Source: Desertivirga xinjiangensis
GTDB lineage: Bacteria > Bacteroidota > Bacteroidia > Sphingobacteriales > Sphingobacteriaceae
DNA length: 64,000 bases
NCBI RefSeq assembly: GCF_024436435.1
Contig: NZ_JAFMZP010000001.1
Location: 930,001 to 994,000, forward strand
Direction: 5' to 3'
Position 1 is the stretch's first letter. The number at the start of each line of letters is the position of its first letter. The notes under the pieces were generated by a model. It worked only from the letters and a program-made list of their open reading frames with translations, was not told the origin of the DNA and made no database searches. Made by a program: the position numbers and the translations under genes. Positions 16,012 to 49,265 of this stretch are shown here, piece after piece.

Positions 16012-16695
16012 TTAATTACATTGCGGCGCAGTTTCGGACGCAATCGCATGTGATACGTATGGAATACTCACATTGAAGCCCCGGGCAAGCAGTACACTTC
16101 CTGCTATCAGTAATAAAACGGGAACAAGCATTCTAAATGCCTTTAGTCTTTTAAAAGCTAAGGGGGCTACCGCTGTGATGAGCAACAGTGGGAGGGTTCC
16201 TAGTCCGAAAAAGAACATAGATTCTGCAGCGCTCAAGGCGGAGCTCTGATTGACGGATTGAGCTATTGCGATATATGTAATTCCGCAAGGTAAAATCCCG
16301 TTAAACATCCCGGCAACAAATGCTCCATAAGGTTTACTCATATATCTGGACAAGAATGGGCCGATGATACTGATGACTTTTGTTCCGAAGAAACTTTTGT
16401 CCCACCTACCTGGAAAATATGAACTTAGGCCAGCTATAAGGAGGATAGTGCCAGTAAGCAGCGCTAGAGCTTGTTGTAAGCCCAGCATGGCAAATCCAAT
16501 GCCTAACAAGCCAGCAAGGAATCCCAAAAAGCTATATATAAGTATCCTGCCCGACTGGTAAAGCAAGTTTTGAAATAGGGCTATGAGAGGACTTTGCTTA
16601 GCGAAAGGCAATGCAAGCAGGAGAGGACCGCACATGGCAACGCAGTGTATACTTCCAAACAGGCCGGTAAAGAAAGCTAGCGCCTGGTAAGTCAT
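16012..16695 (-). CDS. Sulfite exporter TauE/SafE-like (UreH/DsbD-type) membrane protein of the cbb3 operon
   Basis: A 227-residue protein with six membrane segments. The paired motifs GSIHCVAMCGP near the N-terminus and GILPCGITY (about residue 136) are those of the DsbD_2/UreH-like family, in which cysteines in the membrane handle copper or disulfide transfer. Genes of this family commonly close cbb3 oxidase operons in Bacteroidetes, and a role in copper or cytochrome c assembly is expected. It overlaps the fixH stop by four bases (ATGA) and is the last gene of the operon; the next gene on the plus strand converges. Confidence 0.8.
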   Translation of the reverse strand: MTYQALAFFTGLFGSIHCVAMCGPLLLALPFAKQSPLIALFQNLLYQSGRILIYSFLGFLAGLLGIGFAMLGLQQALALLTGTILLIAGLSSYFPGRWDKSFFGTKVISIIGPFLSRYMSKPYGAFVAGMFNGILPCGITYIAIAQSVNQSSALSAAESMFFFGLGTLPLLLITAVAPLAFKRLKAFRMLVPVLLLIAGSVLLARGFNVSIPYVSHAIASETAPQCN

Positions 16696-17117
16696 GGCAT
16701 TAATATTTCCTGCTCATAAAGGTAATTCTTCTCGTTGATGCTATAATTAACTGATAGCATCCATGGCCCGCTTTTAAGCTCCCCTTCGGCGATATGAACA
16801 ACATCCTCTTCATCGGTCTGACGTTCAATGGTCCGGTCCATTTTAGAATCAGACAGGCGTTTGAAATTTAGTTTGCAGGAAGCCGGAAGAATAAATCGGA
16901 TAGAAAGTCCATGGTTGTCAGTTTCAATTTTCGGAATTACAGAGTCGGTAACTGCCAGTCTTTTGGCATCATATTTCTGATTATAGTTTAATCCCTGCTC
17001 ATAATAGTCCTTTTCGATCAGTGTATCGCTGTTACTAAAGATCATTCTAAAGCCCAGGGTTAGTATGAATATCATAAATAAACCCATGGCAACAGCTAAT
17101 TTGGTTCCCCAGCTCAT
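16692..17117 (-). CDS. fixH: FixH/CcoH-type cbb3 oxidase assembly protein
   Basis: A 141-residue protein with one N-terminal membrane anchor (WGTKLAVAMGLFMIFILTLGF) and the conserved FixH stretch SDTLIEKDYYEQGLNYNQKYD. The rest is a small periplasmic beta domain. FixH/CcoH is needed for stable assembly of the cbb3 oxidase together with CcoG, CcoI and CcoS. It lies three bases after ccoG and overlaps the following exporter gene. Confidence 0.9.
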   Translation of the reverse strand: MSWGTKLAVAMGLFMIFILTLGFRMIFSNSDTLIEKDYYEQGLNYNQKYDAKRLAVTDSVIPKIETDNHGLSIRFILPASCKLNFKRLSDSKMDRTIERQTDEEDVVHIAEGELKSGPWMLSVNYSINEKNYLYEQEILMP

Positions 17118-17120: not shown

Positions 17121-18434
17121 TTAAAAATTTGGTGGTGCAATAAATGTTGTACTAAGCTCTTCAACGGTTCTGCCTTTCGAGAGAACCTTCAGTCCTATTT
17201 CAGACTTATATTCTGCAATGTCTTTCTGCGGTTTTATTATAAAAAAAGTGAGTTTAACGCTTTTTCCTTTTCCGATGGTATCTTCTTTACGGATGAATTG
17301 AATAGAGGTGCCCTTTTCTACAGGCAACAACTCAAACTTCACGGGATCTGAAGTCTTGTTAATCAGTTCCACGTTATAAAGATTGCTGACTGTACCATCC
17401 GGACGCTCCTGATACAAGGTTCCGCCTGCGCGTAAGATCACGGTCTCTATATCGCTTCTTGATATCAGTAGAAACGATAACACCGAGATTAAAACGCCTA
17501 ATATTGCGGCATAGCCGTATATCCTTTTGCTGAAACGAAATGCTTGTTTACTGCTTATCTGCTCCTGTGATTTAAAGCCAATTAACCTTTGGGGACGATT
17601 AATTTTTTCCATCACCATATCACAGGCATCGATGCAAAGTGTGCAGTTGATACATTCCAATTGGGTACCGTGACGAATATCTATACCTGTGGGGCAAACC
17701 TGGACGCAAATATTGCAATCAATGCAATCACCCGTGTTTACATAACCGGAGGTGTTCTTTTTCAGCTTTCCCCTGGGTTCCCCCCGCTCATAATCATATG
17801 CAACCACCAGGCTTTTTTTATCGAGCAGAACTCCCTGAAGTCTACCGTAGGGACAAATCACCGTGCACACCACTTCTCTCAGGTATGAAAAAACTAAGTA
17901 AAAGGCTGCCGTGAAAATGATGATAGCAGAAAAACCGTAGATATGTAATGTAATTGGTTCTTCGATAATTTTGATCAGGGGCTCAAGGCCAATAACGTAT
18001 GCGAGGAAAACGTTTGAGATAAGAAAGGAGATCAGCAGGAACAGGGTATGTTTGGCCGTCTTTTTGAAAAATTTTTCGACCGTCAAAGTTGAGGCGTCCA
18101 GCTTTCTTTGTTTGTTTGCATCTCCCTCAATCCAGAACTCTATCTTGCGGAATAACATTTCCATGAAAATAGTCTGGGGACACGCCCAGCCGCACCAGAC
18201 CCGTCCAAACACCGCAGTGAAAAGAATGATGAATATGATGAAGGTCAGCATAGCCAACACAAATATGTGGAAGTCCTGAGGCCAGAAAACTACGCCAAAG
18301 AAGACGAATTTTCTTTCCAATATATTTAACAAGATAAGCTGCTCTCCATTGACTTTTATAAAAGGACCTGAGAACATAAGTGCCAGTAAGACGTAACTCA
18401 GCCAGTTGCGGTACTGATAAAGTTTCCCTTTCAC
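17121..18434 (-). CDS. ccoG: Cytochrome c oxidase accessory protein CcoG (FixG), possible 5' frameshift
   Basis: A 437-residue membrane Fe-S protein: five or six membrane helices, VWCGWACPQT near residue 83, two 4Fe-4S clusters in CIDCNICVQVCP and CINCTLCIDAC (about 240-290), and a C-terminal Ig-like FixG domain. CcoG reduces copper for cbb3 maturation. The open frame starts at GTG 18434, but homology continues upstream: in the same frame, REWIYPKLVKGK matches the family's WIYPKKPxG segment, up to a stop. A likely ATG at 18493 is in another frame (MGEDLNNNKK) and joins it by a -1 shift at the A-run (plus-strand T5 at 18465-18469). The annotated start is therefore probably not the true N-terminus. 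Confidence 0.88.
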   Translation of the reverse strand: MKGKLYQYRNWLSYVLLALMFSGPFIKVNGEQLILLNILERKFVFFGVVFWPQDFHIFVLAMLTFIIFIILFTAVFGRVWCGWACPQTIFMEMLFRKIEFWIEGDANKQRKLDASTLTVEKFFKKTAKHTLFLLISFLISNVFLAYVIGLEPLIKIIEEPITLHIYGFSAIIIFTAAFYLVFSYLREVVCTVICPYGRLQGVLLDKKSLVVAYDYERGEPRGKLKKNTSGYVNTGDCIDCNICVQVCPTGIDIRHGTQLECINCTLCIDACDMVMEKINRPQRLIGFKSQEQISSKQAFRFSKRIYGYAAILGVLISVLSFLLISRSDIETVILRAGGTLYQERPDGTVSNLYNVELINKTSDPVKFELLPVEKGTSIQFIRKEDTIGKGKSVKLTFFIIKPQKDIAEYKSEIGLKVLSKGRTVEELSTTFIAPPNF

Positions 18435-18575: not shown

Positions 18576-19463
18576 TTAGCCTTCTTTTTCGCCTTCCTTT
18601 TCTCCCTGAGGAGCTTTGGCGTTAGCCGGGTTGCTTCCTTTCAGGGAATGGATAAAGTTTGTGACTTCAGAAATCTGCTTCGGAGTCAAAGTCTTCTCCC
18701 ATGATATCATCCCTTTCTCGGGTATACCATATTTGATTGTTTTGAAGATGGCGTTCACACTTCCGCCATGAAGCCAGTACTCATCTGTAAGATTTGGCCC
18801 CACTACCCCCTGGCCTCGGTCTCCATGGCAGGCAACGCAATTGGAGTTGTAGATTGCCTGTCCGGAAGTAATAACAGAGGCTTCAGAGCTTTCTTTTACC
18901 GTGTTTTCATCGATCAGGTTCGCTGCTTTCGACAGGTATTCTTTCCTGGCTGCTTCAGCCTCCTGGACTTCCAGGGCATACTCCTCGTCTTGAAGTGGCG
19001 CCCAGTCGAACACATGATATGTGAGCATGTATCCGAAAGCTAGCGCAATAGTTCCATAAAAAAGCCACATGAACCAGGCCGGGGTAGGATTATCCAGCTC
19101 CGCAATGCCATCAAACTGATGCTCAAGCAAAATGTCTTTTTCTTCTGATAGTGGCTTCAGGCCAAGGATCTTGGTCCAAATGCCTTGTTTGCTCTTTTTC
19201 ATAGCAAGCCATTCTTCGTACTCCAGCGGTTTCTCTACTTCCGTTACAATTGGACTTGGGTTGATGATCTCGTTTGAAAGCTGCTTGAACGTTCTTAACA
19301 AAACCACGGAGACAAGCAGTAAAAGTAGCAACAGGATGACAAAAGCAATGATCAAAAGATCCCAGTAAAGGTTACCAGTGCCTAAAACTTTCGATGTTTC
19401 TTCAGTTGACTGAGCAAACACAGACCCTGAGAATAGAAAAATACCGGTTAAAAATATTCTCAT
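18576..19463 (-). CDS. ccoP: cbb3 oxidase cytochrome c subunit CcoP, one heme
   Basis: A 295-residue protein: N-terminal signal-like helix, a second membrane helix (about 33-58), a conserved segment EFDGI-type near 115 (EHQFDGIAELDNPTPAWFMWLFYGT), a third helix, then one cytochrome c domain with CVACHGDRGQG and GPNLTDEYWLHGG. Proteobacterial CcoP has two hemes; only one CxxCH is seen here, as in other Bacteroidetes. It passes electrons from periplasmic donors to CcoO/CcoN. The start overlaps the ccoQ stop (ATGA). The C-terminus is a charged, Lys/Glu-rich tail. Confidence 0.92.
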   Translation of the reverse strand: MRIFLTGIFLFSGSVFAQSTEETSKVLGTGNLYWDLLIIAFVILLLLLLLVSVVLLRTFKQLSNEIINPSPIVTEVEKPLEYEEWLAMKKSKQGIWTKILGLKPLSEEKDILLEHQFDGIAELDNPTPAWFMWLFYGTIALAFGYMLTYHVFDWAPLQDEEYALEVQEAEAARKEYLSKAANLIDENTVKESSEASVITSGQAIYNSNCVACHGDRGQGVVGPNLTDEYWLHGGSVNAIFKTIKYGIPEKGMISWEKTLTPKQISEVTNFIHSLKGSNPANAKAPQGEKEGEKEG

Positions 19464-19657: not shown

Positions 19658-21772
19658 TTATTTTTCTGCTTTTATATCTATGCCCAGCCTTTGCAGGTAA
19701 GCGATGATGGCAATGATCTCTCTGTCGCTCTTAATTTTAATATTATCAGCCGACAGGTTTGCTGCAATCATATCAGCCTGCTCCATAAGGTCTTTATTGG
19801 CTTCAGTTTCATAGTTCTCTTCGTACGGAACCCCCAGACTGCGCATCGCTGTTATTTTGGAGGCAGTAGTACTGATGTCAAGTTTCTGCTCGATCAGCCA
19901 TGGATAAGGCGGCATAATACTTCCGGGAGACATCGTGGTTGGATCCAGCAGGTGATTAAAATGCCATGCATTGGAGTACTTACCTCCTTCACGATGCAGA
20001 TCGGGGCCGGTTCGTTTAGAACCCCATAAAAATGGGTGATCATACACAAACTCACCTGCTTTACTGTATTCTCCGTAACGCTCTGTTTCTGAGCGGAACG
20101 GGCGTACCATCTGCGAGTGACAGTTTACACAACCCTCACGTACGTAAATATCTCTTCCCTGCAATTCAAGTGGCGAATAGGGCTTAACACTTGCAATTGT
20201 TGGTATATTAGAGCTTACCAGAAAGGTAGGCATCATTTCTACCATTCCACCAATCAGTATGGCAATAAGAGAAAGTACCAGGAATCGCATTGGTTTACGC
20301 TCCAATACTCTGTGCCACGTTTTCTCACTTGCATGCGGCACAAAAACTGGCGCCAATGGCATGGCTTCAGCCGGTTCGTTAGCCAGAAGTTTTCCCTGGT
20401 TAATTGTTTTGATCAGATTGTAGGTCATCAGCACAACTCCTGCAAGGTATAATGCGCCACCAATAGCCCTGAACACGTGCATAGGAATTATCTGGAATGT
20501 AGACTCCAGGAAACCAGGGTATTTTAGCATGCCTTCAGGAGTAAACTCTTTAAGCATGAGCCCTTGAGTAAATCCTGCCCAGTACATCGGAACCGCGTAA
20601 AATAGTATCCCAAAAGTTCCGATCCAGAAATGGTAGCCTGCTAATTTCTTAGAGAAAAGTTCGGTCTGATAGATTCTGGGAACAAGCCAGTAGAGGATAG
20701 CGAATGTAAGGAAACCATTCCAGCCTAAAGCTCCCACGTGTACGTGGGCTACAATCCAGTCAGTGAAATGTGCGATTGCGTTGATCTCTTTAAAGGAAAG
20801 CATCGGACCTTCAAATGTGGCCATACCATAGGACGTCAGTCCGACAACCATAAATTTCAGTGTGGCATCGTCGCGTACCTTATCCCATGCGCCGCGCAGC
20901 GTGAGCAATCCGTTGATCATACCACCCCAGCTTGGAGCGATAAGCATGATTGAAAATACGATTCCGAGCGATTGTGCCCAGCCCGGTAATGAACTATAAA
21001 GTAAGTGATGCGGACCAGCCCAGATGTAAATAAAAATAAGTGACCAGAAGTGAAGGATACTCAATTTATACGAGTAAACCGGCCGGTTTGCCATTTTCGG
21101 AAGGAAATAATACATCATTCCGAGGTAAGGAGTAGTAAGGAAAAATGCAACTGCATTATGACCATACCACCATTGAACCAGAGCATCCTGAACTCCGGCA
21201 TAAATATAATAACTCTTAAAAGCAGAAATAGGCAGCTGGAACGAGTTTACGATATGCAGCACGGCAACGGTAACAAAGGTTGCTATATAAAACCAGATGG
21301 CTACATACATATGCTGCTCCCGGCGTTTAATGATAGTTCCAAACATGTTGATGCCAAATACCACCCAGATCAGGGTTATAGCAATGTCTATGGGCCATTC
21401 AAGTTCGGCATACTCATGAGAAGTAGTAAGGCCGAGCGGCAAAGTAATAACTGCGGAAACGATGATTAACTGCCAGCCCCAGAAGTGAATCTTGCTCAGA
21501 ACATCGCTAAACATTCTCGCTTTGAGAAGCCTTTGTAAAGAGTAATAAACACCCATGAAAATTCCGTTTCCCACAAAGGCAAAAATCACCGCATTGGTGT
21601 GTAATGGTCTTATTCTTCCAAAAGTGGTGTATTGATTCCCCAGGTTCAAGGAGGGTTTAAATAATTGCATGGCCACCAGTAGTCCTACCGTCATCCCGAT
21701 AATACCCCATACTACAGTGGCTATACCAAAGTTCCTGACAATTTTGTTGTCGTAAGTAAATTTCTCAAGCAT
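19658..21772 (-). CDS. ccoNO: cbb3-type cytochrome c oxidase, fused subunits I and II (CcoN-CcoO)
   Basis: A fusion of catalytic subunit CcoN (about residues 1-480) and monoheme cytochrome CcoO (about 500-704). CcoN shows GRIRPLHTNAVIFAF, WYGHNAVAFFLT, AGPHHLLYSS and HVHVGALGWNG with the heme b, heme b3 and copper histidines; CcoO shows GCVNCHSQMVRPF. The enzyme is a high-affinity proton-pumping terminal oxidase used at low oxygen. The ATG at 21772 (MLEKFTYDN) is preferred; an in-frame ATG at 21910 would add 46 residues not seen in the family and would put the TGATATTCGTCA site (21850-21861) inside the coding sequence. It heads the operon ccoNO-Q-P-G-fixH-exporter. Confidence 0.95.
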   Translation of the reverse strand: MLEKFTYDNKIVRNFGIATVVWGIIGMTVGLLVAMQLFKPSLNLGNQYTTFGRIRPLHTNAVIFAFVGNGIFMGVYYSLQRLLKARMFSDVLSKIHFWGWQLIIVSAVITLPLGLTTSHEYAELEWPIDIAITLIWVVFGINMFGTIIKRREQHMYVAIWFYIATFVTVAVLHIVNSFQLPISAFKSYYIYAGVQDALVQWWYGHNAVAFFLTTPYLGMMYYFLPKMANRPVYSYKLSILHFWSLIFIYIWAGPHHLLYSSLPGWAQSLGIVFSIMLIAPSWGGMINGLLTLRGAWDKVRDDATLKFMVVGLTSYGMATFEGPMLSFKEINAIAHFTDWIVAHVHVGALGWNGFLTFAILYWLVPRIYQTELFSKKLAGYHFWIGTFGILFYAVPMYWAGFTQGLMLKEFTPEGMLKYPGFLESTFQIIPMHVFRAIGGALYLAGVVLMTYNLIKTINQGKLLANEPAEAMPLAPVFVPHASEKTWHRVLERKPMRFLVLSLIAILIGGMVEMMPTFLVSSNIPTIASVKPYSPLELQGRDIYVREGCVNCHSQMVRPFRSETERYGEYSKAGEFVYDHPFLWGSKRTGPDLHREGGKYSNAWHFNHLLDPTTMSPGSIMPPYPWLIEQKLDISTTASKITAMRSLGVPYEENYETEANKDLMEQADMIAANLSADNIKIKSDREIIAIIAYLQRLGIDIKAEK

Positions 21773-21849
21773 AAAGTTGAATGGATTTTTCAGATGTAAA
21801 GGTATTGGGCGAAACACTCCCCGGAGATGACCTGCGTTTCTGTAAAAAC

Positions 21850-21861
21850 TGATATTCGTCA
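21850..21861. promoter_or_regulatory. FNR/FixK-like site TGATATTCGTCA
   Basis: Palindrome TGAY-N4-RTCA centred about 83 bases before the preferred ccoNO start (21772), similar in position to the other sites of the window. Confidence 0.62.
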
Positions 21862-21969
21862 CTTTTTTATGAAATGAAAGAAAAGTGGGAAGAACTATGG
21901 CCTGAATCATTTGATCTTAGATAAAAAGCCCTTCCACTTTAATATTATTGCATATTAACGTACCTTTTA

Positions 21970-23156: not shown

Positions 23157-23309
23157 CTAACTTTCTGGTTTATCATCGTCAAAAAGAATTCTCATCGCAG
23201 GCGTCTGCATATCATCATTCTGACCATTTCGCATGGCCCAGAAGAAAGCAGCCAAAAAAACAAGGGCAATCACAATACTACAGCCTATGAGAAAATAAAT
23301 TATACTCAT
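23157..23309 (-). CDS. ccoS: cbb3 oxidase maturation protein CcoS
   Basis: A 50-residue frame, MSIIYFLIGCSIVIALVF followed by LAAFFWAMRNGQNDD and ending ILFDDDKPES. One N-terminal helix, the FFWAMRNGQ(Y/N)DD segment and the acidic end are diagnostic of CcoS, required for cofactor insertion in the cbb3 oxidase. Its ATG overlaps the ccoI stop (ATGA), so it is the last gene of the five-gene minus-strand operon that starts at 29867. Confidence 0.92.
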   Translation of the reverse strand: MSIIYFLIGCSIVIALVFLAAFFWAMRNGQNDDMQTPAMRILFDDDKPES

Positions 23310-25693
23310 TTTTTTAAGGTTAGTTGATTTTTACGGGCGAAATATTTCGTAGAAAGCGTAGTGAACGAAAGTATAGTAACAGTACTAAGCGGCATTAAAA
23401 CAGCAGCAGTTAATGGAGAAAGGGTTCCCTGCACCGCAAAATAAACTCCAACAAGATTATACGCACTGGCTATCGCGAAGCTTATTTTGATCGTTTTCAT
23501 TGCCTCTCTTGCGAGACTGATGAACTTGGGCAGAAGTTTGAGGGATTCTCCTTGCAATACAGCATCACATGCAGGACTGAAATTATTAATGTTATCGGTT
23601 ATAGCTATTCCAAAATCGCTTTGCTTTAGAGCTCCCGCATCATTTAATCCGTCTCCGCACATCATCACCTTATGATTCTGCAGCTGCAAATCTTTAATGT
23701 AGTTCAGCTTGGCTTGTGGAGATTGTCTGAAAAAGATATTCTTTGGAAAAAACATTGCCAGATTTCCTTTATCAGCTTCATTATCGCCCGAGAGAAGATG
23801 AAGGCCCCATCCTGAAAGGGATTTAAACAACGAGCCAAGTCCATCGCGCCATTGATGGTGCACAGTAAAATATCCTTTGTAGTCACCGTCTACTTCGAGA
23901 TGTACAGAAGACGTGTTTTTGTTGAAAGATTTCGCGGAAGGAACAAATGATGCGCTTCCCATCAGAATAAAACGATTGTTAACATAACCAGAGAGGCCTT
24001 TCCCAACTACTTCTTTGAAATTATATACATGACGTAAATTGTCAGTCATGAGCCACTTGATTATTTCCCGGCTTAAAGGATGTGCTGAGTTGCGGGCAAG
24101 GGAAGCAACCATTACCTTGTCCTCGTAACTTAAAGTACCAGTAAAAGAAATGTTCAGGGCATCCGGTGCCGTAATAGTTCCCGTTTTATCAAACACAATA
24201 GTATCCGTTTGTGCAAGCTGTTCAACTGCATCGGTATTTTTCAAATAAAAGCGGTTTTTATCAAATATGCTAAGTACGGCCGATAGCGTAAAGGGGGTGC
24301 TCAGCGAAAGAACACAAGGACAAGCAACAATCAGTACTGCCGTAAAGGAAGCCCAGGCCTTCGCTATATCAGATGAATACACCCAGAATGCTGCAGCAGA
24401 AATGGCTATGATAAAAGTTATCAGGCTGAAATATTTGGCAATGCTGTCATTGAAAGTTAAAATAGACTTTTTGTTGATAAAGGTTTCATTGTTCCATAAG
24501 CTTGTAAGATAACTTTGAGACACTGGTTTTATAATCTCCAGCTCCACGGCTTCACCTACCTGCCGGCCTCCGGCGTAAACAATTTCTCCGAGCACCTTTT
24601 TCACCGGCTCTGATTCGCCGGTAACAAAGCTGAAGTCGAAGAAACCTTCGCCCTGCATCAAAATACCATCTGCAGGAAGTATCTCGTTGTTCCGGATGAA
24701 CACCCTGTCGCCAATAGAAAGCTCAGAGATTGCTACACACTTTTCCTCCTTGTTTTTTAGAACCGTTACCGCCACCGGGAAATAGGAACGGTAATCGCGT
24801 TCAAAAGAAAGCTGGTAATAAGTGCGCTGTTTAACCCACCTGCCCATCAGTAAAAGGAAGATAAGTCCGGTTAAGGTATCAGAGAACCCGGCGCCGGTTT
24901 GGGTCGTGATCTCGAATACCGTTCTGCAAAATAATACGGCAATGATAAGGGCCAATGGGGCATCCAGGTTAACAAGTTTGTTTTTTAAGCCCGACCATGC
25001 AGAAGTAAAAAACTCCCTGCTGCAGTAGAAAGTTGCCGGAAAGGCAAAGGCCAGGTTAAGCCATCCGAACAATGATCTGTATTGTTGTTCAAACTCTGAA
25101 AGGCCAAAATACTCAGGGAAGCTGAAAAGCATCACGTTTCCCATGCATAGACCTGCAACTGCAATTTTTTGAATGAGCTGACGGTTAACCGATCCCTGCT
25201 TTTCTTTAACCACATCCTGAAGGCTGATCAGGGGCTCATACCCTATTGAAGCCAGTAACACAACCAATTGGCGAAGCGATATTTCATGATGTTTAAAAGT
25301 TACTGAAACCTGCTTTTTCAAAAAGTCTATCCTGGAATGTACCACACCGGCATTTAGCTTATGCAAATGTTCCAGAAGCCAGATACACGAACTGCAATGA
25401 ATGCCTGGAATATAAAAGGTAATTACAGTAAGCGTCTCATCCTTATAATCGATCAGATCGGCCGTAATACGCTCTTCGTCAAGGTAAGCAAATTGCTGCG
25501 GCTGGTTGGATTTTGTTTGACCTGGTGTATCATTGTACCGATAGTAATCACATAAATTATTTACTGACAATACCTGGTAAACGCTCTGGCATCCTGCACA
25601 GCAAAAAGCTTTGTCATCATAGATATATTTTTTATTTGTTATTTCTGTTCCGCAGTGATAACAGGAAGTTTCAGTTAAAGTCCCGGCAGCCAT
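23306..25693 (-). CDS. ccoI: Copper-transporting P1B-type ATPase of cbb3 assembly (CcoI/FixI)
   Basis: A 795-residue P-type ATPase. In order: N-terminal cysteine-rich region CYHCG...FCCAGC, a heavy-metal-associated domain with GIHCSSCIWLLE (about 95), membrane helices, the CPC metal site in VACPCVLSL (about 458), phosphorylation site FDKTGTIT (about 499), SAHPLSRE and the hinge GDGLNDAGALKQ (about 683). CcoI supplies copper to the cbb3 oxidase by exporting Cu(I) to the periplasmic side. It follows the unknown flavin-type gene by nine bases and overlaps ccoS. Confidence 0.93.
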   Translation of the reverse strand: MAAGTLTETSCYHCGTEITNKKYIYDDKAFCCAGCQSVYQVLSVNNLCDYYRYNDTPGQTKSNQPQQFAYLDEERITADLIDYKDETLTVITFYIPGIHCSSCIWLLEHLHKLNAGVVHSRIDFLKKQVSVTFKHHEISLRQLVVLLASIGYEPLISLQDVVKEKQGSVNRQLIQKIAVAGLCMGNVMLFSFPEYFGLSEFEQQYRSLFGWLNLAFAFPATFYCSREFFTSAWSGLKNKLVNLDAPLALIIAVLFCRTVFEITTQTGAGFSDTLTGLIFLLLMGRWVKQRTYYQLSFERDYRSYFPVAVTVLKNKEEKCVAISELSIGDRVFIRNNEILPADGILMQGEGFFDFSFVTGESEPVKKVLGEIVYAGGRQVGEAVELEIIKPVSQSYLTSLWNNETFINKKSILTFNDSIAKYFSLITFIIAISAAAFWVYSSDIAKAWASFTAVLIVACPCVLSLSTPFTLSAVLSIFDKNRFYLKNTDAVEQLAQTDTIVFDKTGTITAPDALNISFTGTLSYEDKVMVASLARNSAHPLSREIIKWLMTDNLRHVYNFKEVVGKGLSGYVNNRFILMGSASFVPSAKSFNKNTSSVHLEVDGDYKGYFTVHHQWRDGLGSLFKSLSGWGLHLLSGDNEADKGNLAMFFPKNIFFRQSPQAKLNYIKDLQLQNHKVMMCGDGLNDAGALKQSDFGIAITDNINNFSPACDAVLQGESLKLLPKFISLAREAMKTIKISFAIASAYNLVGVYFAVQGTLSPLTAAVLMPLSTVTILSFTTLSTKYFARKNQLTLKK

Positions 25694-25702: not shown

Positions 25703-27484
25703 TTAAGCGAGTCTGACTTCCATTTGATTTATCTGAGAAGCCAGGTTCTTGAGTTCGGATTGAAAAGTCTTATTGCAGGAGTCACAAAATTTCAAAAGGT
25801 TCGGAAGCAGGTCGTTGTAATATTCAACGCCGTTCATAAGCTGTTCCCTGAACCGTTCCAGCTGTTTCATCTTTTTATCATTGAGCTGGCTTGCGCTGTT
25901 TTCGATGTCCTTTTTCAAATAGTCTATATAAAGCTTGAGCTCATTGATGAACATATGCGGACGACTTATACCTTTAAGCAGGTTGATCTTGCCGTATATA
26001 TGTTTCACCATTTCATCCAGCGTATATATCCCTGAAAAGAAAGCTGTATTCGGACCCGGGCAAATTGCTACAGCCCGATTCTCCCGAGGCTCGAGCATGC
26101 CGTTTTTCAGATATGCAGAAGCACATAAACCTTCGCAAAGGCATAACTTTTCCGTGATCTGTCTGACTTTGTCGTCATATTCTCTGTCTAGAAGGCCCGA
26201 CTCTGCAAGTTGTTTTAACTTCAGGTTCTGATACTCCCTGGAAGCTGTACATATAGGCTCTTCGGTAAATTCAGTATTAGAAACCAAGAATTTCTTTTTG
26301 CAGGGACTTCCCGGGCGTCCTTTAGCTATTCGCTCCAGACGCTGGATCTCTGCAGTGCTTTTCCTGAAATTATTGAAAGGAATTCCGAGAGGAGAGGCCC
26401 CACTGATATAAAAGTCTTCAGCGTCTGCATCCTTAAGTAAATCCAATGTAGCACTATCCACGTTGGTTGCTTCAGGAACCAATAAGAAAGGACTTCCCCA
26501 ACCCGTTCCATCCAGGTTGTAATATTCGATCAAAAAGGAGTTTTCTTCTGCTGTGCCAATTCCGCCTTGAACGGTTATGCGTGTCATAGGTCTTGTAACA
26601 TCCATTCCCGAGCCGGTAAAAAAAGCATGATAAATATCATAAAGCTCGGTTAACATCTCCGCGCGTTTATCTTTGAATTCCTGAAGGATTGGCCCCAAAA
26701 GGTAGCCCTCTGTGGCAAAGGCATGTCCTCCGCAGTTCAAGCCTGATTCAATCCTGAATTCATGCACCCATAAACCTTTTTTTGCCAGGAATTTGGCCTG
26801 GATCAGTGCCGAGCGGTAGTCGCTGACCTTCAATACAATCCTTTTTCCTGAAGAGCTCTCCGGACGGAAACACTCAAACTCTGCCAGGTAGCTGTATAAT
26901 CTCGGGTTCATGCCGGCAGAAAGGATGATAGATGATCTTAACTCACTTTCCGCAAAACCACGGAGCGAGGCGAGTGCATCAGAATACTTATCTCCCAAAG
27001 GCAAACCATCTTTTCCAAGATTCATTTTGTCAACTTTAGACATGATGTTCACTTCGATCGAACCTTTTTTCAGGTTCAGCCTAAGTGATTGCTGTAAGAG
27101 TTCCTTCTTACGAGGATCCTGTTCCGCCAGCATCTCAAGGTACATATGCTTAACCCGGGAGCTATCGGGCAATAGCTCAAAATACCTGGTAATATCAGTT
27201 CCGGAGGCAAAGTCCTGTTCGCTAAGCTCCCTTACCTGGATATCCAGCAGTTCGTTAAGTAAATTCAGGTAAGCCGTAATCCGGCGCGCCCTGTGATCTT
27301 CATCTGTTTTCTTTATAGGAAGATACGGTATGCCGTTTTTTTCTGTATGATATTTCCTCATACGCTCCACCAGCTCATCATCTACAACAGATATAACTGA
27401 TGATATGCCATAGCGGCCAACTTTTAATGGTGTATCAACGGAAAAGCCAAGGCCTAAAACGGGAATATGAAAAGTGTGACTCAT
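25703..27484 (-). CDS. Unknown large protein with nitronate-monooxygenase-like TIM-barrel motifs and C-terminal cysteines
   Basis: A 593-residue cytoplasmic protein. The central part (about 225-345) contains LNCGGHAFATEGYLLGPIL and RITVQGGIGTAEE, resembling the GGHAGG and GGI motifs that bind FMN in the nitronate monooxygenase/2-nitropropane dioxygenase family. The C-terminal third has several cysteines (CKKKF, CTASRE, CLCEGLCASAY, CPGPNT, CDSCNK) that could hold an Fe-S cluster or metal. The last 110 residues look helical and coiled. It lies between hemN and ccoI with gaps of 14 and nine bases, so it is probably linked to heme, copper or redox supply for the oxidase. I know no characterised function. 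Confidence 0.6.
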   Translation of the reverse strand: MSHTFHIPVLGLGFSVDTPLKVGRYGISSVISVVDDELVERMRKYHTEKNGIPYLPIKKTDEDHRARRITAYLNLLNELLDIQVRELSEQDFASGTDITRYFELLPDSSRVKHMYLEMLAEQDPRKKELLQQSLRLNLKKGSIEVNIMSKVDKMNLGKDGLPLGDKYSDALASLRGFAESELRSSIILSAGMNPRLYSYLAEFECFRPESSSGKRIVLKVSDYRSALIQAKFLAKKGLWVHEFRIESGLNCGGHAFATEGYLLGPILQEFKDKRAEMLTELYDIYHAFFTGSGMDVTRPMTRITVQGGIGTAEENSFLIEYYNLDGTGWGSPFLLVPEATNVDSATLDLLKDADAEDFYISGASPLGIPFNNFRKSTAEIQRLERIAKGRPGSPCKKKFLVSNTEFTEEPICTASREYQNLKLKQLAESGLLDREYDDKVRQITEKLCLCEGLCASAYLKNGMLEPRENRAVAICPGPNTAFFSGIYTLDEMVKHIYGKINLLKGISRPHMFINELKLYIDYLKKDIENSASQLNDKKMKQLERFREQLMNGVEYYNDLLPNLLKFCDSCNKTFQSELKNLASQINQMEVRLA

Positions 27485-27498: not shown

Positions 27499-28839
27499 TT
27501 AAATAGCCTTGCTGAATATTTGATCATTTACAGGGCTATTCCATAGGCGTTCATCAAAGGCCATACAAATGTTTCTGAGAAAAGACTTTCCAAGCGGAGT
27601 AACATTCAGCTTGTGATAATCGAATTCAACCAGTTTATCTTTCTGTAACGGAAGCAATCGTTTCACAAGTCTGGAGTCGGTTCTGGTCAGATCCGTAAAT
27701 CCTTTACACATAATGTTTGAGATCTCCCGGCGCCATTCCAGGTCGCTGTCTGTCAGGATATGCCCTTTTAATAATGGGAATTCCCCATTACTTATTTTAG
27801 CAAGATAGACTTCAAGCTTTTTAATATTTTGGGAGAAGGCATACCAGCTGTCACTGATTGAAGACACCCCGATGCCGATCGAAAGTTTGGTGTATTCAGG
27901 GGTATATCCCATAAAGTTTCTGTGAAGGGTACCATTCAGCGATGCCTTAAAAAGGCTGTCGCTTCGCAGGGAGAAATGATCCATGCCTATATTTTCATAC
28001 CCAGCCGCGAGCAGCATTTCACAACCTTTTTCGTAAAGAGCCCTTTTATCTTCCTCTCCTGGAAGGTCTGCTTCCGTAAATTTACGCTGTCCGGGCTTTA
28101 TCCAGGGTACATGGGCATAGCTGTAAAATGCGATCCTGTCAGGCATCAGCTTAATCACCTCATTGATCGTTTTTTCAACACCAGGCAGTTTCTGCAATGG
28201 CAGGCCATAAATGAGGTCATAATTTATGGAGTCATATCCGAGCTCACGTGCATAGCTGGTAATATGGGCAACTTGTTCTATACTTTGTTTCCGGTTAATT
28301 ATTTCCTGCACCTTGGGGTCGAAATCCTGAATGCCAAGGCTTAGTCTCCTGAATCCGAGCTTGTAAAGGGATCTTAGGTGATCATCACTGGTATTTGCCG
28401 GATGGGCCTCGAATGAGAACCCAGCATCAGGTGCTATTACAGAACGGTCAAATATCCCGGTTAATAACTTCTGCAGGTTTTCAGGAGTGAAAAATGTAGG
28501 TGTGCCCCCTCCGAGATGTATCTCTTTAAGGCGTGGCCTGCTGCCCAGAACATTGCAATACATATCCCATTCTTTTAAAACGGCTCTGATGTATGGCTCT
28601 TCAACTCCATGGTTTTTTGTGATACGCGTATTACAGCCACAATAGGTACAAAGGCTCTCGCAAAAGGGAAGGTGAATATAGAGGCTTATACCTTCAGAAG
28701 CACTTTCGGTATAGCTTATCCTCACAGAGTCCAGCCATTTCTCCTGCGTCCAGCTCTCCGTATCCCAGTATGGCACAGTCGGGTAACTAGTATACCTGGG
28801 GGCGGCTACATTATATTTTTTTATTAATTCGGAGCTCAT
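27499..28839 (-). CDS. hemN: Oxygen-independent coproporphyrinogen III oxidase (radical SAM)
   Basis: A 446-residue protein with the radical SAM cluster motif CxxxCxxC in HLPFCESLCTYCGCN (about residues 56-69), followed by LGGGTPTFF and the HemN pattern SLGIQDFDPKVQ. The C-terminal HemN domain (about 355-446) is present. It converts coproporphyrinogen III to protoporphyrinogen IX without oxygen, giving heme under low-oxygen conditions. Its start overlaps the stop of the dehydrogenase gene (ATGA), and it belongs to the same operon as ccoI and ccoS. Confidence 0.95.
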   Translation of the reverse strand: MSSELIKKYNVAAPRYTSYPTVPYWDTESWTQEKWLDSVRISYTESASEGISLYIHLPFCESLCTYCGCNTRITKNHGVEEPYIRAVLKEWDMYCNVLGSRPRLKEIHLGGGTPTFFTPENLQKLLTGIFDRSVIAPDAGFSFEAHPANTSDDHLRSLYKLGFRRLSLGIQDFDPKVQEIINRKQSIEQVAHITSYARELGYDSINYDLIYGLPLQKLPGVEKTINEVIKLMPDRIAFYSYAHVPWIKPGQRKFTEADLPGEEDKRALYEKGCEMLLAAGYENIGMDHFSLRSDSLFKASLNGTLHRNFMGYTPEYTKLSIGIGVSSISDSWYAFSQNIKKLEVYLAKISNGEFPLLKGHILTDSDLEWRREISNIMCKGFTDLTRTDSRLVKRLLPLQKDKLVEFDYHKLNVTPLGKSFLRNICMAFDERLWNSPVNDQIFSKAI

Positions 28840-29867
28840 GCGGAAATAGCTTTAGGTACAATGCCGGTTTTTATTCCAATGGTGCAAGAGTTAACAGGCG
28901 TATGGCCGGCCTCCCACAGATCAAGGTTCAGGATTGTTTGTTCTGCAATTACCTGTAAAGCTTCCTCGGTAAGGAAAGCCATGTGTGGTGTAAGCAGTAC
29001 CCTGGAGTGCTGAATCAGTGCTTTAAGCAGGGGATCCTGTATCGGATTTCTGCTGTGGTTAAAGAAAAACACATTGTGCTCAAATTCATAAACGTCCATA
29101 CCCAGTTTGCTGATCTTCTCATCTTGCAGTGCATCCAAAACATCTTTGGTATTGAATATGGCCCCACGGCTAACATTGATCAGCATAACCCTAGCCTTCA
29201 TTTTGATTATTGCTTCCCTGTCAACCATGTGCCGGGTGCTTTCACTTAAGGGGACATGAAAGCTGATGATGTCTGACTCTTTCAGAATTTCATCATAACT
29301 TACTTGTCTGGCAGAATAAGATGTGCATTCCTCACTTACATCCCGGATGTCGTTCACCAGGATCTTTGCTCCGAAACCACGCAGAATCTGAGCCAGTACC
29401 TTTCCGGATCTTCCAAGGCCAACTATTCCGACGGTTTTATTCCTCAGCGTACTTCCAACAAGGTTATTCAGGCTGAAATCATGTTCAAGCATTTGTTTGT
29501 GAGCAGGAATAATGTTTCTTAACAAAGAAAGGATCAAGGAAATGGCATGTTCTGCTACAGACTCGGGGGAGTAAGCGGGGACATTGGCTATCTTAAGCCC
29601 AAGGCTATCAGCTTTAGTCAGGTCAATATGGTCAGTACCGGAAGACCGGGTGGATACATACTTTACCCCCATTTCTTTCAATTTATAAAGAATAGGGGCT
29701 GAAAGATCATCGCAGGAAAACGCTAACACCACATCTTTGCCTTTGGCATAGGAGATGGTGTCGAGGGTTAACCTGTTCGATATTAAAGTAATATCATGCT
29801 TCTTATTATTTGCTTTGATAAGAAGCTCCTTTTCACAGATTTTACTGCTGTACGCAACCGCTTTCAT
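28836..29867 (-). CDS. D-isomer-specific 2-hydroxyacid dehydrogenase (D-lactate dehydrogenase-like)
   Basis: A 343-residue NAD-dependent dehydrogenase. Seen: RSSGTDHIDL (substrate side), VGIVGLGRSGKVLAQIL (Rossmann GxGxxG, about 148-160), VSRGAIFNT with the catalytic arginine region and LTPHMAFLTEEA with the catalytic histidine (about 293). It resembles fermentative D-lactate dehydrogenase LdhA most closely. It is the first gene of an operon with hemN, the unknown flavin-type gene, ccoI and ccoS, and an FNR-type site lies 76 bases before the start. Lactate production at low oxygen is the likely role; other 2-keto acids cannot be excluded. Confidence 0.85.
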   Translation of the reverse strand: MKAVAYSSKICEKELLIKANNKKHDITLISNRLTLDTISYAKGKDVVLAFSCDDLSAPILYKLKEMGVKYVSTRSSGTDHIDLTKADSLGLKIANVPAYSPESVAEHAISLILSLLRNIIPAHKQMLEHDFSLNNLVGSTLRNKTVGIVGLGRSGKVLAQILRGFGAKILVNDIRDVSEECTSYSARQVSYDEILKESDIISFHVPLSESTRHMVDREAIIKMKARVMLINVSRGAIFNTKDVLDALQDEKISKLGMDVYEFEHNVFFFNHSRNPIQDPLLKALIQHSRVLLTPHMAFLTEEALQVIAEQTILNLDLWEAGHTPVNSCTIGIKTGIVPKAISA

Positions 29868-29937
29868 GCTATTTTGTTTAGATTCAAAAGTAGCGGTACA
29901 GCAAATCTTAAGCTATGAGACTAATCAGGGTTAAAAG

Positions 29938-29949
29938 TGATCTTCGTCA
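29938..29949. promoter_or_regulatory. FNR/FixK-like site TGATCTTCGTCA
   Basis: Palindrome centred about 76 bases before the start of the minus-strand dehydrogenase-hemN-ccoI-ccoS operon. It lies just outside the stop codon of the receiver-CRP gene. Confidence 0.65.
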
Positions 29950-29953
29950 TATT

Positions 29954-31021
29954 TTATTGTTTGATTTTTTTAAGCCTGTCCATGGAAATGATCCTGATAA
30001 CACTGCCTTCTTTTTCAATGAGTTTCTCGTCTTTAAAGTCGGCAAGCGTACGGCTGATAGTTTCATTGGCAGTACCAACCATGGACGCAAGGTCGTCTCT
30101 GGAAATTTTTATTTCGCATTGTTCAACATCTTCATCAACAAACTTTTTACCCAGATCTACCAGGGCATCAGCCACCCGTTTTCTAACGGAATTATAGGCC
30201 AGCTTAAGCAGTTGTTCCTGTTTATCCTGAAGGTTGCCCGACAAAAGCTCGATGAATTTCTTTGCAATTCCGATATCCTTAAATAACAAAGTATTAAAGT
30301 CAGTGCGTGGAATAAGGTGCAGCTCTGTAGTATCAAGGGCTTCTGCATTTTCAGGATAAACTTTATTAAGAAGTACAGCCTCGTAACCCAAAAAATCACC
30401 TGCTGCATACATGCCTGTTACTATTTCACGGCCATCCTGGTAGATCATATAGGTTCGTACTCTTCCGCTTTTTACCAGGTACACATTTAAAGCCTGGTCG
30501 CCGTCCATATAAATATTCTGTTTTTTCTTATACGAGCGTACGCGACTGTTTCCTGAGAGCTCGTGCAGCAGCTTCGCGGACCTTGCTTCATCGAGCAGGT
30601 TTTCCAGAGATGCTGCATTTCCTGCATTTCTTTTCGCCCTTTCACGTTTCTGCAACCTGCTTTCAATAGCATTTAACAGTTCAATGTCATCGAAAGGCTT
30701 AGTCAGGTAGTCATCCGCGCCCATTTCCATTCCTTTCCGCATGTCGGTACGTTCGGCTTTTGCAGTAAGAAAGATAAAAGGAATGTCGGCGGTTGCCTCG
30801 TTTTTACTCAGGAGGTACAATACTCCATAGCCGTCGAGTTCAGGCATCATGATATCGCACAATATGATGTCGGGTAAACTGCTTTGTGCAAGCTCTACGC
30901 CCTTTTTGCCGTTCTCCGCTGTCAAAACAGTGAAATCTGCCAATTCCAGAACTTCGGCCGTACTTTCTCTTATATCGTCATTATCTTCAATTAATAATAC
31001 TGTTGTCTTTGCTATGTTCAT
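29954..31021 (-). CDS. Response regulator with receiver domain fused to CRP/FNR-type DNA-binding protein, partner of the FixL-like kinase
   Basis: A 355-residue paralogue of the protein at 3898-4956. Receiver domain (about 1-125) with EDNDD acidic residues, phospho-acceptor Asp56 in LCDIMMPELDG and KPFDD; cyclic-nucleotide-binding-like barrel (about 155-270); CRP winged helix (about 275-350). The recognition helix NETISRTL matches FNR (ETISR) exactly at the contact residues, consistent with TGAT half sites. No cysteine cluster is present. Its start lies inside the 3' end of the FixL-like kinase gene (35-base overlap), so the two are co-translated. By function it appears to merge FixJ (receiver) and FixK (CRP-type activator) in one chain. 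Confidence 0.92.
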   Translation of the reverse strand: MNIAKTTVLLIEDNDDIRESTAEVLELADFTVLTAENGKKGVELAQSSLPDIILCDIMMPELDGYGVLYLLSKNEATADIPFIFLTAKAERTDMRKGMEMGADDYLTKPFDDIELLNAIESRLQKRERAKRNAGNAASLENLLDEARSAKLLHELSGNSRVRSYKKKQNIYMDGDQALNVYLVKSGRVRTYMIYQDGREIVTGMYAAGDFLGYEAVLLNKVYPENAEALDTTELHLIPRTDFNTLLFKDIGIAKKFIELLSGNLQDKQEQLLKLAYNSVRKRVADALVDLGKKFVDEDVEQCEIKISRDDLASMVGTANETISRTLADFKDEKLIEKEGSVIRIISMDRLKKIKQ

Positions 31022-32216
31022 ACTTTTTAAAAATTAAAGATATAGTAGTTCCTTTATACTGGGCACTTTGACAGAGTACAATTCCGCCCATCATTCCTAT
31101 ATATCTTTTTACGATGTTAAGTCCTAATCCGGTTCCGGGGATATTGCCGGTATTGTGGGCCCTGAAGAATGGCTCAAAGAGATTTTTTTGTTCTTCTACA
31201 GGAATTCCTATCCCATTATCCTTTACCGTAATACAGACCTCAGTTTCGTTAACCTCAGTGTTAAACTCAATAAAAGTATTCTCGCCAGAATATTTAATGG
31301 CATTGGATACAAGATTTATTGCAGCATTTTTTAATAATGCGGGATCCAGAAATACCTGGCTGGTTGCGCCGGTGTGCTGATAAACGATATGTTGATTTTG
31401 TTTGGCGATCAACTGCATCTCCTCTATAATATCTTCCGAAAACTTAACCAGGTCGAATACCTGGAACTGCATTTCAGTTTTACCTGCCTCCAGCTTTTCA
31501 AGCGAGAGGAAATCATTTAAGATGCCGGTGAGATGTCCGACCGAGTTCTTTATCTTTCCGGTGTGCTTCAGGATATTGGTCTGATCAATTTTTTGCAAGT
31601 ATTTTTCGATCAGGGAGGCTGAGAGTTGGACCGAACTTAAAGGTGTTCTGAACTCATGAGATGCCATAGAAACAAACCTCGTTTTTAACTGGTTCAATTC
31701 TTTTTCTTTTTCAAGCGAGTGGCTAGCTTCATCCCTGGCTTTTTCGAGCTCGAGAATGAGCTGCTCCAGATTTTGCGTGCGGTCTTTTACTTTTTCTTCC
31801 AGCTCCTCAGTATATCTCTTCAGATTTTCTTCTGCCTGCTTTTCTTTCGTTAGATCATGTACGAAGCCGGTAAATATTTTCCGGTCTTGATATTCAACCT
31901 CACTGACAGCCAGCCTGAAAGGGAAGGTCGTTTTATCTTTCCGAAGTCCCAAAACTTCACGTCCGATCCCGATAATTCGTTTCTCACCAGTTTGCTGGTA
32001 GCGGTTTATATAACTATCATGTGCACTCCTGTCGGGTTCTGGCATCAACACCGAAATGTTTTTACCTTTTACCTCATGTTCCTCATAACCAAATAGTTTT
32101 AATGCTGAAGGGTTAATAGATTCAATAATACCACGGCTGTCTATGGTTATAATTCCATCGATAGCGGTTTCAATTATTGCGTTTAATAGTTTTGCCTTAT
32201 CCATTGAATTATGCAA
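30987..32216 (-). CDS. FixL-like sensor histidine kinase with heme-binding PAS domain
   Basis: A 409-residue soluble kinase. The N-terminal PAS domain (about 8-125) has the FixL heme signature: RSAHDSYINRY with proximal His66, and IIGIGREV with Arg86. The spacing of 20 residues between His and Arg is the same as His200 and Arg220 of Bradyrhizobium FixL. A coiled coil (about 126-178) leads to the H-box MASHEFRTPLSS (His187), N-box NLVSNAIKYSG, DNGIGIP, FEPFF and GTGLGLNIV. It should sense O2 by heme and phosphorylate the receiver-CRP protein encoded immediately downstream with overlap. No membrane helix is seen, so it is cytoplasmic. A perfect FNR-type site lies 73 bases before the start. Confidence 0.9.
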   Translation of the reverse strand: MHNSMDKAKLLNAIIETAIDGIITIDSRGIIESINPSALKLFGYEEHEVKGKNISVLMPEPDRSAHDSYINRYQQTGEKRIIGIGREVLGLRKDKTTFPFRLAVSEVEYQDRKIFTGFVHDLTKEKQAEENLKRYTEELEEKVKDRTQNLEQLILELEKARDEASHSLEKEKELNQLKTRFVSMASHEFRTPLSSVQLSASLIEKYLQKIDQTNILKHTGKIKNSVGHLTGILNDFLSLEKLEAGKTEMQFQVFDLVKFSEDIIEEMQLIAKQNQHIVYQHTGATSQVFLDPALLKNAAINLVSNAIKYSGENTFIEFNTEVNETEVCITVKDNGIGIPVEEQKNLFEPFFRAHNTGNIPGTGLGLNIVKRYIGMMGGIVLCQSAQYKGTTISLIFKKYEHSKDNSIIN

Positions 32217-32283
32217 ACATAAGTTTCATTATTTGTGATTCGAAAGTAAATATAAATTAAGATTGATTTTATTTAATTAAAAT

Positions 32284-32295
32284 TGATATAAATCA
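32284..32295. promoter_or_regulatory. FNR/FixK-like site TGATATAAATCA
   Basis: Nearly perfect FNR consensus (TTGAT-N4-ATCAT) in the divergent region, 73 bases before the FixL-like kinase start and about 153 bases before the small gene at 32443. Suggests autoregulation of the sensor operon. Confidence 0.72.
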
Positions 32296-32442
32296 TTTAA
32301 TCTCTTGATAGCAATCATTTTATAAGCCCTTCTTTACGCTTAATTTCGGATTAAGAATCTAAACCACAATGTAATTCATCCGTGACGATACCTGCATGAG
32401 CCGGTTAAGCAAGCTTCATCACTATTAAAATCAAATACTAAC

Positions 32443-32863: not shown

Positions 32864-33811
32864 ATGCTTAATATGAAAACTATTCTGGTATTAACCGACT
32901 TTTCTATCAGAGCGCAGTATGCGGCCGAATATGCTATGCAAATGGCATTTAAAAGCGGCGCAGACCTTATTTTATGTAATGCAATTGAACTGGCAGAACA
33001 TAATCCCGTTGCTCAACCTATAGCCTGGCCAGTAGCCGGTCATCTGTCACTTCAGGATGAATGCATGATGGATCTGAAGTATCTGGCCAATCACCTCAAA
33101 AGTCTCGTTCCAAAAAATCAGAAAGACGCGCTCTACGAGCCGACGGTAACCTGCATAGCCGGTTTCGGGAAATTAACAACACTTGTCTCCGGCATCATTC
33201 CGGTAAAAGGAGTAGACCTGATAGTGATGGGAGCGCATAAGTCGAACGGATTAGCACGCTTTCTTTTCGATAGCCATACGCACGATATCCTGGATAATAT
33301 TGACTGCCCGGTGCTGATGATCCCCGGCAGTCAGGGTTATAAAGGGATCAATCTTATTGCTTACGGAACAGATCTTACATTCAGCAATAAAAAGGTTATT
33401 CAATATCTTTCTGAAATAGCAGAGCCTTTTAATGCAGAAATTTTAGTTAGAAATATATTGCCTCCCAATGTGTCTTCTGATGGACAGGCAAACAAAATAT
33501 TAGCAGATCAGGGTCAAAATGCTTCAGATAGCATCCTGACCAGGATCACTTACACCAGTATCCAAGGCGAGAATATACCCAAAAGCCTGCTCGAGATCAG
33601 TGGGGCAGGCAAAGCTGATATTCTGGCACTTGTTCATAAACGCTATGGTTTCTTTGAGAATTTATTCCATTCCAGTATCAGCAAAAGAATGGTAGATATC
33701 GCAGAGGTTCCGCTTTTGGTTTTACCGGGTTCATTCAGTGAGAATGTTGGAGATCTGTCAGATGATCAGCTGGATCATTATTGCTATGAGCCCGGGCGCT
33801 CCAGAGGGTAA
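32864..33811 (+). CDS. Universal stress protein, tandem UspA domains (second copy)
   Basis: A 315-residue paralogue of the protein at 5195-6076, with the same two-domain layout: TILVLTDFSIRAQYAAEYA at the start, GAHKSNGLARFLFDSHTHDI in the first domain, LIAYGTDLTFSN at the start of the second and HSSISKRMV near the end. By comparison with the paralogue, ATG 32873 may be the true start instead of 32864. Role as for the first copy: a stress-induced cytoplasmic nucleotide-binding protein. It follows the small gene at 32443, and a strong terminator follows. Confidence 0.87.
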   Translation: MLNMKTILVLTDFSIRAQYAAEYAMQMAFKSGADLILCNAIELAEHNPVAQPIAWPVAGHLSLQDECMMDLKYLANHLKSLVPKNQKDALYEPTVTCIAGFGKLTTLVSGIIPVKGVDLIVMGAHKSNGLARFLFDSHTHDILDNIDCPVLMIPGSQGYKGINLIAYGTDLTFSNKKVIQYLSEIAEPFNAEILVRNILPPNVSSDGQANKILADQGQNASDSILTRITYTSIQGENIPKSLLEISGAGKADILALVHKRYGFFENLFHSSISKRMVDIAEVPLLVLPGSFSENVGDLSDDQLDHYCYEPGRSRG

Positions 33812-49174: not shown

Positions 49175-49265
49175 CACTTCGAGCGCAAAATTACTTCCTC
49201 AGATTTTCAATATCTTTTTTTTACGCGATATCATTACTGATTAAAAATCGCCTTAAAGCCCTTCT

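Follow-up and report, generated by a model that had tools for sequence, protein, structure and literature searches.

The window analysed here is a stretch of 64,000 nucleotides from the 5.5-Mb genome of Desertivirga xinjiangensis (contig C11, positions 930001-994000), in which a sensor kinase with a FixL-type heme PAS domain and a response regulator joining a receiver domain to a CRP/FNR-type protein (hereafter REC-CRP) are encoded side by side. The coordinates of the two open reading frames (ORFs) bear out the two overlapping genes that a first-pass annotation of this DNA had proposed; both lie on the minus strand, and their overlap is of 35 bases. That annotation was silent on the setting of the pair, which consists of low-oxygen genes (cbb3 oxidase, hemN, fixG/fixH, and nitric oxide [NO] reductase; table 1), the kind of genes governed by FixK and FNR in other organisms. 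Our reading, to which we give a probability of roughly 0.62, is that the pair forms a two-component system reporting low oxygen to a cbb3/anaerobic gene set in a single phosphotransfer step.

Table 1. Genes and candidate DNA sites in the window (positions count from its first nucleotide)
Feature	Position	Strand	Basis or remark
PAS (FixL-type heme)-HisKA-HATPase_c sensor kinase, 405 amino acids from ATG (P0002)	30987-32204	-	Pfam, PDB sequence search, pocket comparison, model
REC-cNMP_binding-HTH_Crp response regulator, 355 amino acids (P0001)	29954-31021	-	Pfam, model, fold search
D-isomer specific 2-hydroxyacid dehydrogenase, next gene after the regulator	28836-29867	-	Pfam
hemN, oxygen-independent coproporphyrinogen III oxidase	27499-28839	-	TIGR00538 above cut-off
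593-amino-acid protein without Pfam or NCBIfam match	25703-27484	-	
Heavy-metal P-type ATPase, "fixI-like"	23306-25693	-	P-type ATPase families; fixI name from neighbourhood/position
ccoNO, fused cbb3 oxidase subunits I/II, longest ORF	19658-21910	-	NCBIfam NF011053 above cut-off
cbb3 subunit III (ccoP/FixP_N)	18576-19463	-	Family match
ccoG/fixG	17121-18434	-	FixG_C, Fer4_18
fixH	16692-17117	-	Pfam
Nitric oxide reductase, NorB with cytochrome c-like domain	10870-13128	+	PF22085, COX1; no NCBIfam match
Ric/YtfE-type di-iron Fe-S repair protein	6180-7133	+	TIGR03652 above cut-off; box at 6095
Universal stress protein (Usp)	5195-6076	+	PF00582; boxes at 5023 and 5134
Universal stress protein	32864-33811	+	PF00582
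Second REC-cNMP-HTH_Crp regulator, 41% identical to P0001	3898-4956	-	Pfam; no adjoining kinase found
Two TTGATN4ATCAT boxes, 79-114 bp upstream of kinase ATG, before divergent gene 32443(+)	32283-32318	.	Putative Crp/Fnr-type sites
GTGATCTTCGTCAT, 70 bp before the 2-hydroxyacid dehydrogenase gene	29937-29950	.	Putative site
CTGATATTCGTCAC, RTGAN6TCAY with one mismatch; lies upstream of ccoNO when ATG 21772 is taken as the start	21849-21862	.	Similar place in relatives

The sensor kinase and its REC-CRP partner

The PAS domain of the kinase aligns without a gap to that of Bradyrhizobium FixL, with 59 of 118 residues identical (50%), and the heme-type His and Arg stand in this alignment at the 20-residue spacing of FixL, in agreement with the signature noted at first pass. 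The residues named there as His66, Arg86, and His187 do exist, albeit under a numbering that counts from a TTG at 32216 and adds four residues; from the ATG, they are His62 and Arg82, both heme-type, and the phospho-acceptor His183. Among the FixL residues that line the heme pocket, H200, Y203, R206, I215, I218, R220, L236, and G251 have kept equivalents, I238 being replaced by Val and H214 by Arg. In a PDB sequence search with the PAS domain, FixL accounts for each of the top seven distinct sequences (best E = 2e-34), a likeness that such an E-value places beyond chance, and DosP-type heme PAS domains come next, in the same PAS cluster but with a much weaker match (~1e-13). The enzyme output of DosP differs from a kinase. 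One source groups FixL and DosP by their helix-F histidine (PMC10468136). The domain is also 48% and 54% identical to two FixL-type PAS domains of S. meliloti, encoded by the FixL ORF of pSymA (L174) and by a second FixL-like ORF (L175), the ORFs of the unannotated pSymA record being those that we presume to be FixL, FixJ, and FixK. Structure prediction points in the same direction: the kinase model (mean predicted local distance difference test [pLDDT] 83.9, predicted template modelling score [pTM] 0.53) fits the dimeric FixL PAS structure 8js5 with a root mean square deviation (rmsd) of 1.5 Å over 134 columns at 46% identity, this entry ranking 48 by E-value in the fold search, behind mostly kinase structures. 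The domain is in sum a FixL-like PAS holding the proximal His and the distal Arg at FixL spacing, and because of this match and of these two retained residues, it likely binds heme and O2.

The kinase core, in turn, is not FixL-like. By sequence, it is nearest to HK853-type kinases, no FixL-kinase entry being present among its 35 PDB matches at 1e-10; it is 24% identical to the S. meliloti FixL core, and it reads HEFRTPL, versus HELNQPL in the S. meliloti FixL-like ORF. The curated NCBIfam FixL equivalog ranks second among the models matched by the kinase and is missed by far (180.9 vs. 850 bits), with its best stretch in the PAS domain. Most rows of HK853 chains in the fold search show 3.1-3.7 Å over ~230 aligned columns; an observation that runs counter to this placement is the third rank by E-value of the LOV-FixL-kinase chimera 4gcz, though its rmsd is 31.6 Å over the whole length. 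Finally, S. meliloti FixL has an N-terminal membrane part, for which the present kinase leaves no room, its PAS domain starting within the first ten residues.

The regulator consists of three Pfam domains above their gathering cut-offs, Response_reg (residues 8-120), cNMP_binding (162-248), and HTH_Crp_2 (281-353), so that the receiver joined to a CRP/FNR-type DNA-binding protein, as first proposed, is indeed what the gene encodes, the latter two domains placing it in the CRP/FNR superfamily. Asp56 and Lys108 are present and are invariant in 40 aligned regulators. Among solved structures, the CRP part is closest in sequence to A. fischeri FNR, followed by FixK2, and in fold to CRP-type structures. 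With FNR, FixK2, and Crp, the regulator shares the cNMP fold and a Crp helix-turn-helix (HTH) with ETISR; it differs from them in its N-terminal receiver and in the absence of N-terminal Fe-S cysteines of the FNR kind, its only cysteines being Cys55 and Cys302. The recognition helix NETISR (from residue 319) had been equated with that of FNR, a comparison that stands for the common ETISR and fails for the residue before it, since A. fischeri FNR has VETISR where the regulator has Asn. In E. coli CRP, an Arg-Ser pair binds the phosphate of cAMP; judging by eye, Arg-Ser is apparently absent from the regulator stretch GDFLGYEAVLLNKVYPENAEAL. Because the regulator has no FNR-type Fe-S site and seemingly no cAMP-binding Arg-Ser, phosphorylation is a plausible main control of its activity.

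Rhizobia use three proteins (FixL, FixJ, and FixK) where two are found here, and the first-pass annotation had accordingly described the regulator as FixJ and FixK fused. This description did not survive comparison with either protein. FixJ is a REC followed by a LuxR-type HTH, whereas the REC of this regulator, 27% identical to that of S. meliloti FixJ, is joined to a cNMP-HTH_Crp output; FixK is a stand-alone CRP protein, whereas the CRP part, 27% identical to S. meliloti FixK, has a REC attached, and the FixK model, the best-scoring one of NCBIfam for the regulator, remains below its cut-off (100 vs. 300 bits). That a literal FixL-FixJ-FixK system was transferred from rhizobia and carries FixJ and FixK as one fused protein is in our view very improbable: the identity of the PAS domain to its two S. 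meliloti counterparts and the first rank of FixK would fit such an origin, but the affinity of the core to HK853, the 24-27% identities of core, REC, and CRP part to the S. meliloti proteins, and the missed FixL and FixK cut-offs led us to reject it. Recent shared ancestry with rhizobia could hold for the PAS domain alone and is contradicted for the other three parts. What the pair has in common with the FixL-FixJ-FixK system of S. meliloti and Bradyrhizobium is the FixL-type heme PAS, a CRP/FNR-type final regulator, and a cbb3/fixG/fixH/hemN neighbourhood, whereas no specific relationship links the kinase core, the REC, or the CRP part of the two systems; it would thus work like a shortened FixL-J-K pathway, built from different kinase, receiver, and CRP lineages.

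Conservation of the pair and exchange of its sensor

Relatives were compared at 80 named loci, the best of 440 relatives in terms of similarity to the REC-CRP of the window, all drawn from one contig scan, with fetched flanks of up to 10 kb per side (shorter in 14 of the 80). The first-pass annotation had called for a search for the receiver-cNMP-HTH_Crp architecture beside FixL-like kinases in other genomes, and such neighbours abound: a kinase lies upstream on the same strand in 80/80 loci, at a gap of -80 to 470 bases that exceeds 100 in only three, and both heme-type residues are found in 78/80, the His being kept throughout and the Arg everywhere except in L070 and L083. Adjacent kinase and REC regulator, with their His and Asp, are hence conserved together as a two-component pair. 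In the pocket, the positions of R206 and H214 are variable, and the distal-pocket position of FixL Ile218 is occupied by Lys in 10 and by Thr in 5 of the loci (L044, L060, L073, and others), which might shift ligand affinity.

Homologues of window genes recur in the same flanks, with hemN in 65 loci, the 593-amino-acid protein in 64, the fixI-like gene in 58, ccoP in 56, ccoNO in 55, and ccoG in 53. These counts bear on the alternative that the heme PAS mainly reports NO (or the heme redox state) and that the pair governs NO defence and denitrification rather than an O2 response, which we hold to be unlikely. The window does contain NorB, Ric, and related genes, with candidate boxes (see below) upstream of ric and of the cytochrome c gene that adjoins norB, and it also contains the second REC-CRP; this NO-handling set leaves NO as an alternative signal and thereby weakens the case for oxygen. 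However, the distal Arg, which contacts O2 in FixL, is retained in nearly all named loci as mentioned above, and homologues of norB and ric are found in 0 and 0 of the 80 fetched flanks, versus 55 for ccoNO.

At the scale of the phylum, full-length REC-CRP proteins (E <= 1e-45) were found in 43 genomes of an evenly drawn sample of 296, all of them labelled as the own genome, the same family, or the same class. ccoNO is present in 38 of these 43 genomes, versus 163 of the other 253 (p = 0.001), counts that may follow phylogeny; since a single class contains every REC-CRP genome of the sample, we do not take this co-occurrence as evidence. REC-CRP loci were obtained for 29 of the 42 other sample genomes, and a kinase, sought within 1.5 kb of flank, adjoins the regulator in 26 of them. 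These other Bacteroidota systems resemble the pair of the window in how the regulator is built and in having a HEF(R/K)TPL kinase next to it, and differ from that pair in their sensors: next to 11 FixL-type kinases, we count 12 whose PAS lacks the IIG...Arg distal motif (labelled "H-x3-R type" in this analysis), three kinases with no aligned PAS, and three loci with no kinase found. The H-x3-R type PAS has the heme-position His in 12/12 cases, its Ile215 and Arg220 positions not being conserved as in FixL. ccoNO lies within 25 kb in 5 of the 11 FixL-type loci (one of the 11 being without ccoNO) and in 6 of the 12 H-x3-R type loci.

To a tree of 52 REC-CRP proteins, 20 chosen among the 80 named loci, the 29 sample loci, and three of the own genome contributed. 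The proteins with FixL-type partners form one group of 29 rows in this tree (support 100/99), the FixL-type row L114 falling outside; the FixL-type pairing may have originated more than once. The nearest relatives of the window protein come from Hymenobacteraceae (Adhaeribacter) and Sphingobacteriaceae (Desertivirga, Daejeonella). A third REC-CRP of the own genome, on contig C25 (L093:4021-7123) and 64% identical to that of the window, is encoded beside a 603-amino-acid kinase without FixL-type PAS, the N-terminal part of which reads as membrane-anchored. As this paralogue nests in the FixL-type group, its sensor was apparently replaced, and the sequences thereby indicate at least one sensor replacement in the REC-CRP lineage. 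REC-CRP relatives that cover at least 80% of the window protein are also carried by plasmid records of Hymenobacter, Runella, and Spirosoma (H41-H46), these being 6 among 12 such records with a match at 1e-25, the one of Runella being overlapped by a PAS kinase gene.

Candidate Crp/Fnr-type boxes and the genes they precede

The FNR box TTGATN4ATCAA, expected from the reading of the recognition helix, shows no enrichment in the window (66 matches at two mismatches or fewer vs. 59 expected), and neither does TTGAN6TCAA with one mismatch (49 vs. 49). The pattern RTGATN4ATCAY, picked post hoc after the FNR-box matches, occurs 8 times in the window versus 0.36 expected, and 70 times genome-wide versus 13 for a reversed control; RTGAN6TCAY occurs 12 times in the window versus 4.4 expected, a count matched by 1 of 100 shuffles. 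Under our own choice of genes, 7 of 11 TGATN4ATCA matches in the window are intergenic, versus 10% of the bases (p = 2e-5), as are 8 of 12 RTGAN6TCAY matches (p = 4e-6). Ten of the 70 genomic RTGATN4ATCAY sites gather within 43.4 kb, a number above anything seen in 2000 random placements of 70 sites, none of which exceeded 8, and stand before pflB and adhE (both outside the window), usp, ric, and the cytochrome c gene, which adjoins norB, at 14645, at 37810, ahead of an ORF that reads as DnaK-like, and at three coding places. Directly left of the window (L095:1-10381) lies a row of ORFs that read like pta, ackA, a major facilitator superfamily transporter, pflB, its activase, and adhE, a pyruvate formate-lyase (pflB) and an AdhE-like protein being recognized there by Pfam; boxes precede the transporter, pflB, and adhE in this row.

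Across the named loci, a de novo palindrome count upstream of ccoNO, which is independent of the post hoc choice of pattern, ranked GTGA-N6-TCAC first (32/55), a rank that this palindrome did not reach upstream of the kinase, hemN, fixI, or ccoG. RTGAN6TCAY is found upstream of ccoNO in 38/55 loci (0 and 0 for two control patterns), with 33 of 39 sites at 89-104 bases before the ORF start, upstream of the 593-amino-acid gene in 56/63 (controls 2 and 0), and upstream of the dehydrogenase gene in 8/41 (controls 0 and 1), counts that are not independent because the rows are related. The 593-amino-acid protein is a likely member of the low-oxygen set.

Several of the box and linkage counts weigh against control of this set by the pair, and bring in the alternative that kinase and REC-CRP are cognate but that the cbb3/anaerobic genes answer to another Crp/Fnr protein, the REC-CRP controlling something else; we regard this as unlikely. 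One such point comes from a comparison of 20 genomes searched without REC-CRP (17 matched, 19/19 ccoNO matches used) with 40 searched that bear one (36 matched, 30/37 ccoNO matches used): RTGAN6TCAY precedes ccoNO in 14/19 of the former loci versus 12/30 of the latter (Fisher p = 0.04), the direction opposite to that expected under REC-CRP control, own-family loci among these 30 having it in 4/5 (L125-L128, L130). Since the box precedes ccoNO where there is no REC-CRP, it is a general Crp/Fnr-type site that is not assignable to this REC-CRP, and we rejected it as proof of REC-CRP control. RTGAN6TCAY is moreover found upstream of the kinase in only 8/80 named loci (controls 0 and 1) and of hemN in 1/65 (controls 1 and 0), 163 of the 201 sampled ccoNO genomes are without REC-CRP at the threshold used, and in 21 of the 38 genomes with both, no REC-CRP has ccoNO within a distance of 25 kb. 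A stand-alone Crp-type protein (L094:2953-3696) with four Cys near its N-terminus, a possible Fe-S regulator, is also at hand in the own genome. On the other side, REC-CRP, whatever its sensor, is often near cbb3, 17 of these 38 genomes (own genome included) having it at most 25 kb from ccoNO, versus ~1% by chance according to a rough estimate of our own. Besides, the own genome has five HTH_Crp_2 matches over the cut-off. Four of them span the model in full or almost so, namely three REC-CRPs and the stand-alone protein, whose neighbours look, by reading, like genes for molybdopterin and transport.

Proposed oxygen signalling and remaining features of the window

The pair is real and conserved, and most likely acts as a two-component switch by which the cbb3/anaerobic set responds to oxygen. 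In the mechanism that we infer, the kinase would hold heme in its FixL-type PAS and would be switched off by bound O2; at low O2, it would autophosphorylate on His183, and the phosphate would pass to Asp56 of the adjoining REC-CRP. Phosphorylation, replacing a small ligand or an Fe-S cluster, would then cause the CRP part to dimerise and to bind Crp/Fnr-like boxes before the cbb3 oxidase and other low-oxygen genes. If this were true, the rhizobial logic that leads from a heme PAS through a CRP-type activator to cbb3 would have been built on two or more occasions, in the present version one step shorter, the CRP-family protein itself being the direct target of phosphorylation. For many species, the conserved heme-kinase/REC-CRP pair, often found beside oxidase genes, represents a specific candidate sensor and regulator.

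More tentatively, and with rather less than even confidence, REC-CRP systems may be viewed as a widespread Bacteroidota counterpart of FixL-J-K that was independently assembled around a phosphorylation-gated (not ligand-gated) CRP-family activator, tied to cbb3/anaerobic genes and served by an exchangeable sensor, of which the FixL-type heme PAS would be one module and the H-x3-R PAS, with its His but without the distal pocket, possibly a second heme sensor for another ligand. No account of O2 sensing by such a pair in cbb3-bearing Bacteroidota was found in a search of open-licence full texts. CRP/FNR homologues of Flavobacteriales and Saprospiraceae are discussed as MalR-like in one source, the term "receiver" being absent from its main text (PMC8510549).

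Two gene assignments in table 1 call for precision. The fixI-like ATPase passes the general ATPase_P-type cut-off of NCBIfam and misses those of the heavy-metal subfamilies. The start of ccoNO is ambiguous: the longest ORF runs from 21910, its family match begins at residue 47 of that ORF, and we chose the ATG at 21772. The second REC-CRP of the window (3898-4956) is divergent from the neighbouring Usp gene, with two boxes in between. At the other end, the interval 48179-63612 holds, as judged from reading the ORFs alone, an ORF for an AraC-like regulator and, after it, a series of genes resembling those of glycoside hydrolases.

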